DNA from: an uncultured bacterium
GTDB lineage: Bacteria; Elusimicrobiota; Elusimicrobia; Elusimicrobiales; Elusimicrobiaceae
Assembly: GCA_949296525.1 (NCBI GenBank)
Contig: CASFOP010000007.1
Span: 1 to 64,000 of the forward strand
DNA: 64,000 nt
Reading direction: 5' to 3'
Shown: piece by piece, positions 37,670-60,124 of the stretch
How positions within the stretch are numbered: position 1 is the stretch's first letter
Layout: each line of letters opens with the position of its first letter
Made by a program: the position numbers and the translations under genes
Notes under the pieces: generated by a model
What the model was told of the DNA's origin: nothing
Databases searched by the model: none
What the model saw: the letters and a program-made list of their open reading frames with translations, nothing else

Positions 37670-37709
37670 AATAGTGTTGCGGCAGTTTCCTGACGTAAAA
37701 AACAATTTT

Positions 37710-37800
37710 GGAGAGGTGGCTGAGAGGCCGAAAGCGGCGGTTTGCTAAACCGTTATACGGGTTAACTCCCGTATCGAGGGTTCGAATCCCTCCCTCTCCG
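37710..37800 (+). tRNA. tRNA-Ser (GCU anticodon)
   Basis: 91 nt. Acceptor stem GGAGAGG with CCTCTCC and G discriminator, long variable arm (ACGGGTTAACTCCCGT), anticodon loop TTGCTAA reading AGC/AGU codons, and T-arm GAGGGTTCGAATCCCTC. CCA is not encoded. The long variable arm is diagnostic of class II tRNAs. Confidence 0.97.
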
Positions 37801-37810
37801 TTTTGCTATA

Positions 37811-50110: not shown

Positions 50111-50119
50111 TGTTACAAT
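50111..50119 (+). promoter_or_regulatory. Extended -10 for the glycosyltransferase operon leader
   Basis: TGT-TACAAT with the hexamer at 50114-50119. Predicted start near 50126, giving a leader of about 325 bases before the first gene. Confidence 0.55.
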
Positions 50120-50125
50120 AAACAT

Positions 50126-50410
50126 AAATTTGTTTACAGCGAGGTAGTTTTTTTGTCATTCATGAGTTCCTAATACGGGGCTTATTTACAATTTATCTGT
50201 TTTTGGAATCCTATACAGAATAGGATGGGTCCGGCAGACCGGGCGCAAGTAGAGTCCAAAAACAGCTGGTTTAGGCAGGAAATGCCGCGGGGTAGCTCCC
50301 CGCGCATTTCCTGCCGAATGTTTCGCATATTCAAAAGAATAAGCGAAACTACGGCTGTTTAATGGTGGGCCACTCTACTTGCCTCACGTATTATACAGCC
50401 GTTTTTGTTG
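50126..50410 (+). ncRNA. Highly structured leader RNA with alternative pairings and a terminator
   Basis: Closing stem TAATACG (50171-50177)/CGTATTA (50387-50393). Stem CTGTTTTTGGA (50197-50207)/TCCAAAAACAG (50255-50265). Inside it hairpins ATCCTAT/ATAGGAT and GGTC/GACC. GCAAGTAGAGT (50245-50255) is the exact complement of ACTCTACTTGC (50372-50382). Hairpin 50274-50315 has 18 pairs with one bulge; hairpin 50321-50348 follows. ACGGCTGT (50351-50358)/ACAGCCGT (50395-50402) precedes TTTTT, a terminator that competes with AAACAGC (50260-50266)/GCTGTTT (50354-50360). This is riboswitch- or attenuator-like; no known class is recognised. Confidence 0.7.
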
Positions 50411-50451
50411 GGCAAATCTTTTTCTGCCAATAACACCAAAGGAGAAAAACT

Positions 50452-51414
50452 ATGCCCGACAAACACATGCATATTTGCTTTGCTTCTGACAACAACTATG
50501 TCCCATATATGGGGATTGCAGTCTTGTCCATTTTGCAACACGCACAGGCCGATGAATATTTCCATTTTTATATTTTGGATAATAAGATCTCTCTGAATAA
50601 AAAACAGACAATAGAGCAGCTTTTGAAAGGGCACAATGCCCAAATTTCTTGGCTGCCAATAGATGAAATCTTCTTTCAGGGTTGTAAAACGCAGCGTAAA
50701 AACTGGACTTTTTCCATCTTCAGCCGTTACTTAATACCCCAATTAATCAACCAGGACAAAGTGCTGTATTTAGACTGTGATGTAATGGTGCGTTCTTCCC
50801 TGTGGCCTTTATGGAAAACGGATTTAACTGACTATTACTTGGCCGGAGTGCCGGATTACAATGTCATTTACCGCGGCCGTCTCAAGGAACGTTTTGGGAA
50901 AGAGCTAAAAGCGGAAGAATACGTCAATTCCGGCGTATTGCTTATCAACAATAAAAAATGGCGTCAGGAAAAGCTGTTGCGCCAGCTGTTGGAATACTCT
51001 GTTAGAAATGCCGACAATCTGCTTTGGCCCGATCAGGATGCCATTAACTTTATCTGCCGCCGCGCCAAAAAAATATTGCCGTCCTGTTGGAACACCATGG
51101 GGTATTTTTATAAGCCTGATTTATTTGCCGATGACCCGCACATGGAAGATATTTTAAGAGAAAGGGACAAGGCATATATCCGGCATTTTCACCCGTGGAA
51201 AAAAAACCATTTTATTCCGCACAGAGAAGAATATTTCCAACTGATGCGCAAAAGCCCGTGGAAAAATTTGATACCCAAAGATGATCCAAAACCGATTGCC
51301 TGGGGCAAGGCCCTGTTGCGGTATATGTATAATCATCCTTTTTGTTTTTTGACTCCCAAATTTTACAGACGCTGGTATTACCGGGGGACGGCATGCCTGT
51401 TCATGGAATATTAA
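50452..51414 (+). CDS. Glycosyltransferase family 8 (LPS-type hexosyltransferase)
   Basis: 320 residues; AAAGGAGAAA precedes the ATG. GT-A fold with N-terminal ICFASDNNYVPYMGIAVLSIL, metal-binding DxD in VLYLDCDVMV, YVNSGVLLIN, WPDQDAIN and a C-terminal IRHFHPWKK resembling the HxxGxxKPW of the family. Transfers galactose or glucose to lipid A core or a similar acceptor on the cytoplasmic face. First gene behind the structured leader RNA. Confidence 0.92.
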   Translation: MPDKHMHICFASDNNYVPYMGIAVLSILQHAQADEYFHFYILDNKISLNKKQTIEQLLKGHNAQISWLPIDEIFFQGCKTQRKNWTFSIFSRYLIPQLINQDKVLYLDCDVMVRSSLWPLWKTDLTDYYLAGVPDYNVIYRGRLKERFGKELKAEEYVNSGVLLINNKKWRQEKLLRQLLEYSVRNADNLLWPDQDAINFICRRAKKILPSCWNTMGYFYKPDLFADDPHMEDILRERDKAYIRHFHPWKKNHFIPHREEYFQLMRKSPWKNLIPKDDPKPIAWGKALLRYMYNHPFCFLTPKFYRRWYYRGTACLFMEY

Positions 51415-51953
51415 ATTTGCCGGTTGTTTGTATAAGTGATGAGTGCCATTCCTCCGAAACGGCACGTATCCTGGAACTGTTAACGCAGTATGGCTGCCGC
51501 CAGCCCGTATATTTGTTGGCCCATTATATTAATCCTGCCACACGGCAGAGCCTGGAAAACATGGCGGCAGAAAAAGGCCTAACCCTCTTGTGGCGGGAAT
51601 GCGGAGATGGGCTGATTTATGCCTACTTCTGCGGGGAAAACGGTTATCTGCCGACAGAACTGACCCTTTTATTATTGCCGTGGATACTCCCTGACAAAAA
51701 AGTATTGGTGCTAGGAGGTAAAATAACAACCCGCGAGATAGAGAGCCTGGCCATCGCGACAGCAGAACATGAAAGTACCGTTCTGGAAGGCGGGCTTCCA
51801 CCGTTTTCTCAGGCAGCACAGATTCATTTGGCTGCCGCGCGCCGAGACATACGGAATATAGAAAGCCTTTTGGAACAGAACCGTCATATTTATAAAAAAT
51901 TCCCCATCTGGCGAGTCTGGGGAATATTCGCCACTACTGTGAGGACTTTATGA
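51393..51953 (+). CDS. Degenerate, truncated GT8-fold protein
   Basis: 186 residues from the ATG at 51393, inside the end of the previous gene. It parallels the first half of the GT8 upstream: VVCISDECHSSETARILELL matches ICFASDNN..., PVYLLAHYINPATRQSLENM matches the next helix, and LPWILPDKKVLVLGGKITT replaces IPQLI..DKVLYLDCDVMV. The DxD is therefore GGK and the acceptor half is missing. It is probably non-catalytic. It overlaps the GT2 gene by 4 bases, so it is translated within an intact operon and not obviously decaying. Confidence 0.65.
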   Translation: MPVHGILNLPVVCISDECHSSETARILELLTQYGCRQPVYLLAHYINPATRQSLENMAAEKGLTLLWRECGDGLIYAYFCGENGYLPTELTLLLLPWILPDKKVLVLGGKITTREIESLAIATAEHESTVLEGGLPPFSQAAQIHLAAARRDIRNIESLLEQNRHIYKKFPIWRVWGIFATTVRTL

Positions 51954-53002
51954 ACTATCCATTTCTGTCTTTTATAGTTCCCATCTATAATACAGAACGT
52001 TTTTTGCCGCGTTGTCTGGATAGTATTTTATTCCAAAATTACCCAAACCTGGAGATTATCTGCGTAGATGATCATTCCGTAGATGCCTCTGCGGGGATTT
52101 TGCAGCATTATGCCAAAAAACATCCGTCTATAAAGGTGTTTAGTACTTGCGGAAAAGGGGTTGCCGATACTCGCAATACGGGGCTAATACAGGCAACGGG
52201 GGAGTGGATAGGGTTTGTAGACAGCGATGATTTCCTGCTCCCGAATGCCCTGCAGGAAATAACTTCTTATTTGACTGAAGACATAGATCTTATGGTTTGG
52301 GGATATGAATTATATTTTGAAACACAGTCTGAAAGTAGAGTGCCTGAACGGGCCAATATATGCAAAGATGGAAAGCTTTATTTTAAAGGGAAGAAAAATT
52401 TTTCCTTTAGAACAGCAAGACATACCCCGGTAGTCTTATGGAACAAATTGTTCCGTGCCGATATTATACGGGAACGCCACATTGCGTTTCCCCGTGATGT
52501 ATCTTTCGGAGAAGATAATGCCTTTTTTTGGAAATATTTTTTATACTGCCGTAAGGCCTATTTTTTACCAAAGGCTCTATACGCTTATGTTCAGCATTCC
52601 GCGTCCCTTATGAACCGGCTGGAAAAACGCCACCTGCCCAAACAAGATACTCATATGCAGGCCGCAGAAGATATATACCATTTCTATCAGCTCCACAGGG
52701 CATTGCACTCCCATGCCAAAGAACTGGAAAAAATCTGTTTATGGGTTTTTTATTTCCTATGGGAGCATACCCCAGTAGAAAAAAAGGCAGATATTTTTCA
52801 ATTGGGCGTCCGGTTTTTCAGACAGCATTCATTTAAAGGGCGTAATGCTGCCGTAAAAGCCCTATTGAAAGGAAATATGGGACAATTTTTAAAGATAAGG
52901 CAAAAAGGCAGCCTGTTGGAGCAGATTTTTTCTTTTAGAAACATTAATGGTTATAAGTCTCTGACCCTGTTCGGAGTTAACATACCGCTTTATAAAAAAT
53001 GA
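51950..53002 (+). CDS. Glycosyltransferase family 2
   Basis: 350 residues. FIVPIYNTERFLPRCLDSIL opening, ICVDDHSVDAS, DTRNTGLIQATGEWIGFVDSDDF with the DSDD metal site, and SFGEDNAFFWKYF for the catalytic ED. The C-terminus has helical SALMNR-like VQHSASLMNR. It adds a sugar to LPS or another envelope glycan. Start overlaps the preceding gene at ATGA. It converges with the flavin reductase gene with 3 bases between stops. Confidence 0.92.
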   Translation: MNYPFLSFIVPIYNTERFLPRCLDSILFQNYPNLEIICVDDHSVDASAGILQHYAKKHPSIKVFSTCGKGVADTRNTGLIQATGEWIGFVDSDDFLLPNALQEITSYLTEDIDLMVWGYELYFETQSESRVPERANICKDGKLYFKGKKNFSFRTARHTPVVLWNKLFRADIIRERHIAFPRDVSFGEDNAFFWKYFLYCRKAYFLPKALYAYVQHSASLMNRLEKRHLPKQDTHMQAAEDIYHFYQLHRALHSHAKELEKICLWVFYFLWEHTPVEKKADIFQLGVRFFRQHSFKGRNAAVKALLKGNMGQFLKIRQKGSLLEQIFSFRNINGYKSLTLFGVNIPLYKK

Positions 53003-59020: not shown

Positions 59021-60124
59021 ATGCACAGCCCGCGGCACGCTTTCAGCCAAAACAATATTCCCGTCATCTTTTGTACTGACGGGCGTTTTTTACCGTATAC
59101 GGCCGTGGCGCTTTCATCGCTGGCGGCCGCGGCGCGGGACGGGTACAATTACGACCTGCTTATTGTCAGCGGCGATAAAATCCTTTCAGAAGCACGGCAG
59201 TGTCTGCAAGCATCGCTGGGTAAAAAGGAAAATATATCCATTCGCTTTATCTGCATACCGGAGAGTCTGAGGATTTTGACGGATAAATTGTCCGTACGTG
59301 AAGGATATTCTCCGGTTATTTATTACCGCCTGTTTATTCCGCAACTGTTTAAACACTATACTAAGGTGATTTTTTGCGATGCAGACGTGCTTTTTCTGCG
59401 GGGAATAGAAGAACTCTACAACCAATCGCTGACGCAGAACCTCCTGCTGGCCGCTGTGCCCGATAGCCTGCCTTATTCTGGGACGGAACAGGCCCAAAAA
59501 AATTTTGCCGCTTACACCCGCCGTTTGGGATTAAAAACGCCTTTTTCTTATATCAATTCCGGAGTTTTGTTGTGGAACCTGGAACAGACGAGGAACCAAA
59601 AGCTGGACAAGCAGCTTTGGCAGAAACTGCCGCTGCTGCCAAAACCTTCCCTCTTCCCAGATCAAGATGTTTTGAATTTGGTCTTTCAAGGCAAAATCTT
59701 TTATTTAACGGCTGCTTATAATTTCTTTGCCCAGGAACCGGACATACGTCCCCCTTTTAGCCTGCAGGCCCAAACCTGCATACAGGCGCGGCGGGAAGCG
59801 GCGCAAAATCCGGCCGTTATTCATTATGCGGGCTTTGCCAAGCCTTGGTTTTATCCGCACGCTCCTTATGCCGCCATGTGGTGGCGCCAAGCGGCGCAGA
59901 CGCCTTTTTATGATGAAATTGTGGCCCGTCTGCGCGCGCATGACCGCCGCATGCAGCGGCGCTGGACAAATACGGTTTTGGCGGCAAAACTTTATTTTTA
60001 TAAAATAATGAATAAATTGTCCGGCGGTCATTATGAAGATAAAATGTTACATATAAGCGACCGCTTGGATATTAATAACTACTGGATAAAAAACCGTTTT
60101 AAGAAACAGGAGGAAAAATTATGA
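59021..60124 (+). CDS. Glycosyltransferase family 8
   Basis: 367 residues. PVIFCTDGRFLPYTAVALSSL, DxD in VIFCDADVLFL, YINSGVLLWNL, LFPDQDVLNLV and the complete HYAGFAKPW acceptor/nucleotide motif. Adds a hexose to LPS core or a related glycan. Overlaps the next gene at ATGA, forming a GT8-lipocalin-SIMPL unit. Confidence 0.92.
   Translation: MHSPRHAFSQNNIPVIFCTDGRFLPYTAVALSSLAAAARDGYNYDLLIVSGDKILSEARQCLQASLGKKENISIRFICIPESLRILTDKLSVREGYSPVIYYRLFIPQLFKHYTKVIFCDADVLFLRGIEELYNQSLTQNLLLAAVPDSLPYSGTEQAQKNFAAYTRRLGLKTPFSYINSGVLLWNLEQTRNQKLDKQLWQKLPLLPKPSLFPDQDVLNLVFQGKIFYLTAAYNFFAQEPDIRPPFSLQAQTCIQARREAAQNPAVIHYAGFAKPWFYPHAPYAAMWWRQAAQTPFYDEIVARLRAHDRRMQRRWTNTVLAAKLYFYKIMNKLSGGHYEDKMLHISDRLDINNYWIKNRFKKQEEKL

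Follow-up and report, generated by a model that had tools for sequence, protein, structure and literature searches.

A multi-copy family of structured leader RNAs with exclusive folds and copy-specific pseudoknots in gut Elusimicrobiota

Introduction

What kind of RNA lies in front of a run of glycosyltransferase genes in an uncultured Elusimicrobiaceae bacterium? The question is raised by a 64,000-nucleotide stretch of contig CASFOP010000007.1 (assembly GCA_949296525.1), hereafter the window, in which an earlier note made from the sequence alone proposed a new riboswitch or attenuator. Sequence comparison indicates that the element is one copy of a previously uncatalogued multi-copy RNA family of gut Elusimicrobiota. 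We put at about 0.78 the probability that the family acts in cis, attenuating transcription of surface genes through two mutually exclusive folds; the trigger is not included in this figure. The earlier note missed the large multi-copy family, the copy-specific pseudoknot and a covarying palindrome in the loop of hairpin P3, which points to RNA-RNA contacts.

Results

The element is one copy of a large RNA family

Searched as plain DNA against 100 relatives, the element matched 44 of 101 genomes, all of the same genus and many with several copies, and the copies, once turned to one strand, aligned end to end. With a covariance model, R1, 213 distinct copies were collected. Within the window's genus R1 found the element in 61 of 66 genomes, with up to at least 35 copies per genome. 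Across the phylum 91 of 341 genomes were positive, belonging to the window's genus, a second genus of the family (18/18 genomes) and a distant family, f21 (12 genomes, including G318 with 25 copies and G312 with 19). The hosts are named Elusimicrobiaceae, Elusimicrobium sp. or Elusimicrobiales metagenome-assembled genomes, and many of the names carry a rumen or other gut source. The source genome holds four copies (window 50185-50406, C4:94365, C8:90777 and C8:115663). R1 found no copy in G118, a relative assembled as a single contig.

Phages and plasmids searched for homologues yielded none. A phage-borne element is unlikely: the DNA pattern gave only short, partial, A+T-rich matches of 26-27 bits in viral contigs. 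Matches of a genome pattern scan outside the Elusimicrobiota received no score with the model and are ascribed to chance.

The earlier note recognised no known class here, and Rfam bears this out. In a scan of Rfam 15 at the gathering threshold the element matched no family, a tRNA-Ser(GCT) at 37709-37801 being the sole match of the window; at permissive thresholds the element's best sub-threshold matches reached 17-18 bits against thresholds of 90-100, none of them convincing. A literature search of open-access papers returned no earlier description of the element and no paper on structured RNAs in the phylum.

Two individual loci may be recorded. At L088 (genome G060), two elements on the same strand (1178-1378 and 2001-2212), some 620 bases from each other, each precede a prepilin gene of their own. 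Copy L083 of the source genome (G000:C8:90777) may be decaying: its P3 loop is degenerate and its pseudoknot imperfect, whereas the orthologue L013 is intact.

The helices are kept by compensatory changes

Given 20 copies, RNAalifold returned 52 pairs, 38 of them with double changes, and chose the pseudoknot and the antiterminator helix unprompted. In a 101-copy alignment, which was fitted to a model that includes the pseudoknot, P2a, P3 and P4 (not P2, P5 or the antiterminator helix), so that the percentages for the first four lean upward, 97.1% of the cells of P2, P2a, the pseudoknot, P3, P4 and P5 are paired, against 77.1% when shuffled and 38-48% when slid. The covariation score over the same copies is 0.601, against 0.201 when shuffled and about 0.1 when slid. 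The pseudoknot claimed by the earlier note is 99.4% paired over the 101 copies; every pair shows compensatory change (double changes in 9/9 scored pairs), and the helix is also visible in unfitted MAFFT alignments. The helices are kept in homologues by compensatory changes, as in a structured RNA family; covariation in relatives, on which the earlier note had staked its proposal, is found both by RNAalifold and in the 101-copy alignment.

In the window, the three long-range pairings, the 18-pair hairpin (P3), the second hairpin (P4) and the terminator (P5) that had been named are all present at the positions listed below. The extent first proposed, 50126-50450, was too generous: the conserved core is narrower, 50185-50406 (about 220 nucleotides, nt), and the 5' hairpin at 50162-50185 is variable and optional in the family. 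The 325 nt region folds at -129.6 kcal/mol, 11.3 standard deviations below dinucleotide shuffles, none of 100 of which was as low. Another pairing in the window, TAATACG/CGTATTA, was lost in the first relatives aligned and is probably due to chance.

50162-50185, + strand: P1, optional variable 5' hairpin (ATGAGTTCC/GGGGCTTAT), from the fold, with equivalent hairpins in copies
50185-50406, + strand: conserved leader RNA core; R1 match of 205.8 bits, E 3.7e-49
50197-50207, + strand: P2 5' strand CTGTTTTTGGA, complementary to 50255-50265; 96.9% paired, compensatory changes at 2/10 pairs
50208-50226, + strand: P2a hairpin ATCCTATACAGAATAGGAT; 98.7% paired, 5/5 scored pairs covary
50227-50244, + strand: P2b hairpin, variable, from the fold
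50245-50255, + strand: pseudoknot 5' strand GCAAGTAGAGT, the private address; pairs 11/11 with 50372-50382 in the window, 99.4% in the family, with double changes in every scored pair
50255-50265, + strand: P2 3' strand TCCAAAAACAG, from the 101-copy alignment
50260-50268, + strand: antiterminator 5' strand AAACAGCTG, AAACAGC(TG); 95.4% paired with 50352-50360, bases after CAG complementary to ACGG
50274-50315, + strand: P3, the long 18-pair hairpin, with a dimerisation-type apical loop (TAGCT, 50293-50297) that is palindromic in many copies; 97.0% paired, 11/11 scored pairs covary
50320-50349, + strand: P4, the second hairpin; 98.4% paired, 7/7 scored pairs covary
50351-50358, + strand: terminator P5 5' strand ACGGCTGT; whole P5 helix 93.6% paired
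50352-50360, + strand: antiterminator 3' strand CGGCTGTTT, (CG)GCTGTTT; complementary to 50260-50268, pairing seen in the 101 copies
50372-50382, + strand: pseudoknot 3' strand ACTCTACTTGC, within the terminator loop, from the 101-copy alignment
50395-50402, + strand: P5 3' strand ACAGCCGT, then TTTTTG, from the 101-copy alignment
50402-50406, + strand: terminator U-run, matching a family-wide T-run at the 3' end

Several stretches are unpaired and highly conserved: ACAAUUU before P2, UUUAGG before P3, GA(A/G)UG between P3 and P4, and ACUACGG.

Two exclusive folds are conserved

The earlier note had seen attenuator logic in the competing helices, and the family retains it: two exclusive folds are conserved, P2 with the terminator P5, or the antiterminator helix with the pseudoknot. 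AAACAG, the P2 3' strand, alternatively pairs with CUGUUU, the P5 5' strand, and both sets of pairings are conserved. The antiterminator helix is 95.4% paired in the 101 copies, against 26-60% when slid. The two bases after CAG, though unused by P2, are pyrimidines opposite G in 94/101 and 98/101 copies, and over 29 distinct strings the post-CAG complementarity to ACGG is 3.52 of 4, against 2.59 in same-base shuffles. In copy L312 three partners have changed together at one position, and P2, the antiterminator helix and P5 all persist, with one double change in the antiterminator. The family thus has a conserved candidate antiterminator exclusive with the terminator, recognised by conservation and not by covariation, and a predicted intrinsic terminator that lies between promoter and start codon on the same strand. 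Attenuation is well supported at the sequence level; we infer that P5 terminates and that the antiterminator with the pseudoknot is the ON state, and likewise what sets the balance between the folds.

A plausible course of events is as follows. The promoter just upstream would start the leader, and P2, P3 and P4 would form first. Once polymerase has made GGCUGUUU, followed by the pseudoknot strand, AAACAG(YYG) could leave P2 and pair with CGGCUGUUU to make the antiterminator; locked by the copy's private pseudoknot, this helix would let polymerase continue into the gene. Were the pseudoknot unmade or undone, GGCUGU and ACAGCC (P5) would pair, P2 would be restored, and polymerase would stop in the U-run and release a leader some 280 nt long.

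In constrained folding before the terminator arm, the antiterminator with the pseudoknot beats P2 in 100/101 copies (mean 9.3 kcal/mol), and at full length P2 with P5 beats the antiterminator with the pseudoknot in 94/101 (mean 6.0 kcal/mol), in a comparison that scores neither P2 together with the pseudoknot nor kinetics. This limit counts against attenuation by the two folds, as do the following points. The antiterminator strands are almost invariant, which leaves conservation and one double change in place of covariation proper. That conservation could stem from P2 and P5 alone, except at the bases after CAG. Copies of the glycosyltransferase type (L005, L007, L008, L013, L040 and L083) often carry a second hairpin and T-run (GGGATTCC...GGAGTCC TTTTT) before the gene.

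Beyond the terminator, a TTTTCCAAAAACAG-like stretch, complementary to the P2 5' strand, stands just before many prepilin ribosome-binding sites (e.g. L063, L070, L071, L075 and L081, in G041). It makes 11-12 of 12 pairs in 26% of copies, against 2.7% of shuffles, and may be a third partner for P2.

Copies precede genes for prepilins, surface glycans and DNA methylases

A co-oriented open reading frame lies within 260 nt of 197 of the 213 copies; 7 of the 16 copies without one are at contig ends. Most copies stand 30-60 nt upstream of the co-oriented start codon of a prepilin, glycosyltransferase, outer-membrane protein or DNA methylase gene; the gap has a median of 40 nt for prepilins and 62 nt for the other genes. 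A prepilin motif is found in 119 of the 197 reading frames (about 60%) and, by eye, in several of the 78 others. Among 65 first genes, Pfam identified 38 N_methyl prepilins, 9 glycosyltransferases and 4 beta-barrels; a set of 58 mostly non-pilin genes gave glycosyltransferase families 2 and 8 (GT2, GT8), beta-barrels, three EcoRI-type methylases, sulfatases and rhamnan synthesis proteins. In the source genome the four copies precede a GT8/GT2 run, a beta-barrel gene, an N6/N4 DNA methylase gene and, at a distance of about 100 nt, a GT2 gene. The lipopolysaccharide (LPS) glycosyltransferase operon of the earlier note fits the window, where a GT8 and then a GT2 gene follow the element; in the family as a whole the commonest targets are prepilin genes. 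Restriction-modification genes belong to the regulon as well, because the leader precedes DNA methylase genes. L084 (G000:C8:115663) stands before an N6_N4_Mtase gene, and L290, L196 and L172 stand before methylases, EcoRI-type, in other genomes.

TATAAT, TATACT or TACAAT occurs within 90 nt upstream of 152/212 copies, against 22% of shuffles, and the transcription start of pilin copies would fall close to the first conserved base. At the other end, five or six of the final six positions are T in 188/213 copies. The flanks of the window's copy hold the following features; no good -35 was found upstream of its TACAAT.

50114-50119, + strand: -10 promoter hexamer TACAAT, from the sequence
50139-50147, + strand: AGGAG-like stretch GCGAGGTAG of the 5' extension, 5' of P1; present in copies of the glycosyltransferase and outer-membrane types (76 upstream regions compared)
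50438-50444, + strand: ribosome-binding site AAAGGAG, from the sequence
50452-51414, + strand: GT8, the operon's first gene; PF01501, E 8.6e-40
51950-53002, + strand: GT2, in the same gene run; PF00535, E 2.6e-29

A leader peptide after the AGGAG-like motif and its equivalents was considered and rejected, since spacing and start codons are inconsistent by eye. No copy of the element precedes the window's second GT8 gene, at 59021-60124.

The pseudoknot is private to each copy

Separate copies in one genome all differ in their pseudoknot (37/37 in G060, 21/21 in G041 and 10/10 in CAMVRX); the single repeat, in G128, involves a 98.5% identical pair, one member of which is at a contig end. Between copies of one genome, identity in the pseudoknot is 0.33-0.36, the level of chance, against 0.57-0.86 in P3, P4 and P2a and more in P2 and P5. 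At 90% identity or more outside the helix, syntenic orthologues keep the pseudoknot in 7/7 pairs, and paralogues with homologous downstream genes in 0/10, most of these ten pairs coming from one genome, G128. Without the synteny criterion it is kept in 28/50 versus 1/14 pairs (Fisher p 0.0016, indicative only, as pairs share members). An exact-pattern search of the assembly for a trans partner found no other copy of the window's 11-mer, and near other copies no partner above chance was found.

We read the private pseudoknot as selection against cross-pairing between the leaders of one genome. Because this one helix diversifies within genomes, is kept in orthologues and is lost in paralogues, the leaders apparently must not cross-react, and leader RNAs therefore probably meet in trans.

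The P3 loop is palindromic in most copies

At least nine different 6-nt palindromes occur in the P3 loop: TAATTA, TCATGA, TTATAA, TTCGAA, TTGCAA, CTCGAG, CTGCAG, TCTAGA and CTATAG. A palindrome of at least 6 bases is present in 148/213 copies, a few off-centre or longer ones included, and 65 of the 106 distinct P3 loops have at least 6 self-complementary bases, against 18% of shuffles. Common loop types that fall short of a perfect palindrome are xGATCx and TAGCT. In the family the apical loop appears to be kept palindromic through sequence change, in the manner of a dimerisation initiation site (DIS). Because a 6-nt palindrome of this kind cannot fold on itself, its partner would be a second molecule, and by analogy the palindromes suggest that leaders dimerise. 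The window's own loop, TAGCT, speaks against this, being not strictly palindromic and self-complementary only in AGCT. Restriction sites as a cause of the palindromes proved uninformative, every palindrome being one.

Discussion

Control by leader-leader contact is favoured on two grounds: each copy has its own version of the helix that would stabilise the antiterminator, and the P3 loop is self-complementary. The trigger would be another leader RNA, contacted by kissing loops through the P3 palindromes; the pseudoknot strands would then serve as an identity check, confining each released leader to its own gene. We favour this kind of RNA-RNA recognition as the proposed trigger, with a metabolite riboswitch as its main rival. 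A complete RNA-only identity system, in which kissing leaders of dozens of paralogous surface genes test private pseudoknot strands and the terminated leader represses or activates its own gene only, is a tentative and rather doubtful extension.

The attenuator could be real and its pseudoknot merely a fast-drifting helix, the palindromic loops a by-product, with no recognition between leaders. Any helix may drift by compensatory change, and no third site in the genome matches the window's pseudoknot; we give this account a substantial chance, though short of even. It has to accommodate that within-genome identity stays at 57-86% in P2a, P3 and P4 but falls to the level of chance in the pseudoknot of the same copies, that the pseudoknot is kept by all seven syntenic orthologue pairs (90-100% identity elsewhere) and by none of the ten paralogue pairs, and that at least nine different 6-nt palindromes occupy one loop position. 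A classical riboswitch is conceivable but on balance unlikely. The conserved unpaired stretches are compatible with a binding pocket whose small ligand, possibly a second messenger, would decide between antiterminator and P5, and one signal would switch all surface genes together. The surface-gene regulon and the many copies per genome resemble those of cyclic-dinucleotide riboswitches, which, with terminators, are reported to control adhesins and pili in other bacteria (PMC6366702, PMC11218506). Yet Rfam matches the element to no known riboswitch, and a shared ligand leaves the copy-specific pseudoknots and palindromic loops unexplained.

The targets, LPS glycosyltransferases and pili, also resemble those of RfaH, and the core might be a binding site for an RNA-binding protein or a modified polymerase complex of the RfaH, LoaP, Q or put-RNA kind; some copies must indeed pass two terminators. 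However, most targets are single short genes near the leader, and a NusG paralogue is absent: the NusG domain (PF02357) occurs in exactly one gene in 16 of 17 genomes tested and in none in the other, whether or not the genome carries the element. A mechanism based on a NusG paralogue is disfavoured, no RfaH/LoaP-type factor being at hand, and protein- or polymerase-based antitermination as a whole seems improbable. Very unlikely, in our judgement, is that the RNA works mainly in trans, as a small RNA completed at its own terminator, with the downstream gene incidental. The strong 3' terminator and own promoter would suit this, as would the 96-236 nt, with a second hairpin, that separate several glycosyltransferase-type copies from their gene, but most of the 213 copies are consistently oriented towards a start codon a short distance away, and the gene types are strongly biased.

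The phylum gains a large, well-supported RNA family whose regulon is coherent and made up of surface and restriction-modification genes, classes that elsewhere are typically phase-variable. The private address helix suggests that many similar genes can be regulated one by one through RNA alone. If the identity system is true, each gene would count its own transcripts, and pilins and surface glycans could be expressed independently or one at a time without DNA rearrangement or proteins; RNA dimerisation as a bacterial regulatory principle becomes directly testable.

Comparison with known systems

RfaH/ops and LoaP, RNA-dependent systems of processive antitermination, act on LPS and pilus genes; the genomes compared here differ in having no NusG paralogue (17 tested). 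Transcription attenuators and terminator-type riboswitches (cyclic di-GMP, GEMM) share the 5' leader position, the exclusive terminator and antiterminator, the surface-gene regulon and the many copies, whereas the element has no Rfam match or known aptamer core and adds a copy-specific pseudoknot in the presumed antiterminator and a palindromic loop. Termite-flg (RF01729) and Termite-leu (RF01730) are likewise candidate structured RNAs, from gut bacterial metagenomes (PMC2864571); the element, in contrast, has no match in Rfam. The ornate RNAs ROOL, GOLLD and OLE are large structured bacterial RNAs that self-associate by RNA contacts (PMC12286853), demonstrated in their case and only inferred in ours; unlike them, the element is smaller, multi-copy and cis-acting before genes, with a terminator and without an Rfam match. 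The DIS kissing loop of HIV-1 (PMC7357161) resembles the element in its hairpin, whose loop of about 9 nucleotides surrounds a 6-nt palindrome. The element differs in that dimerisation is putative and the flanks are not strictly purine, and in that it stands in bacterial mRNA leaders, where the palindrome covaries among copies.
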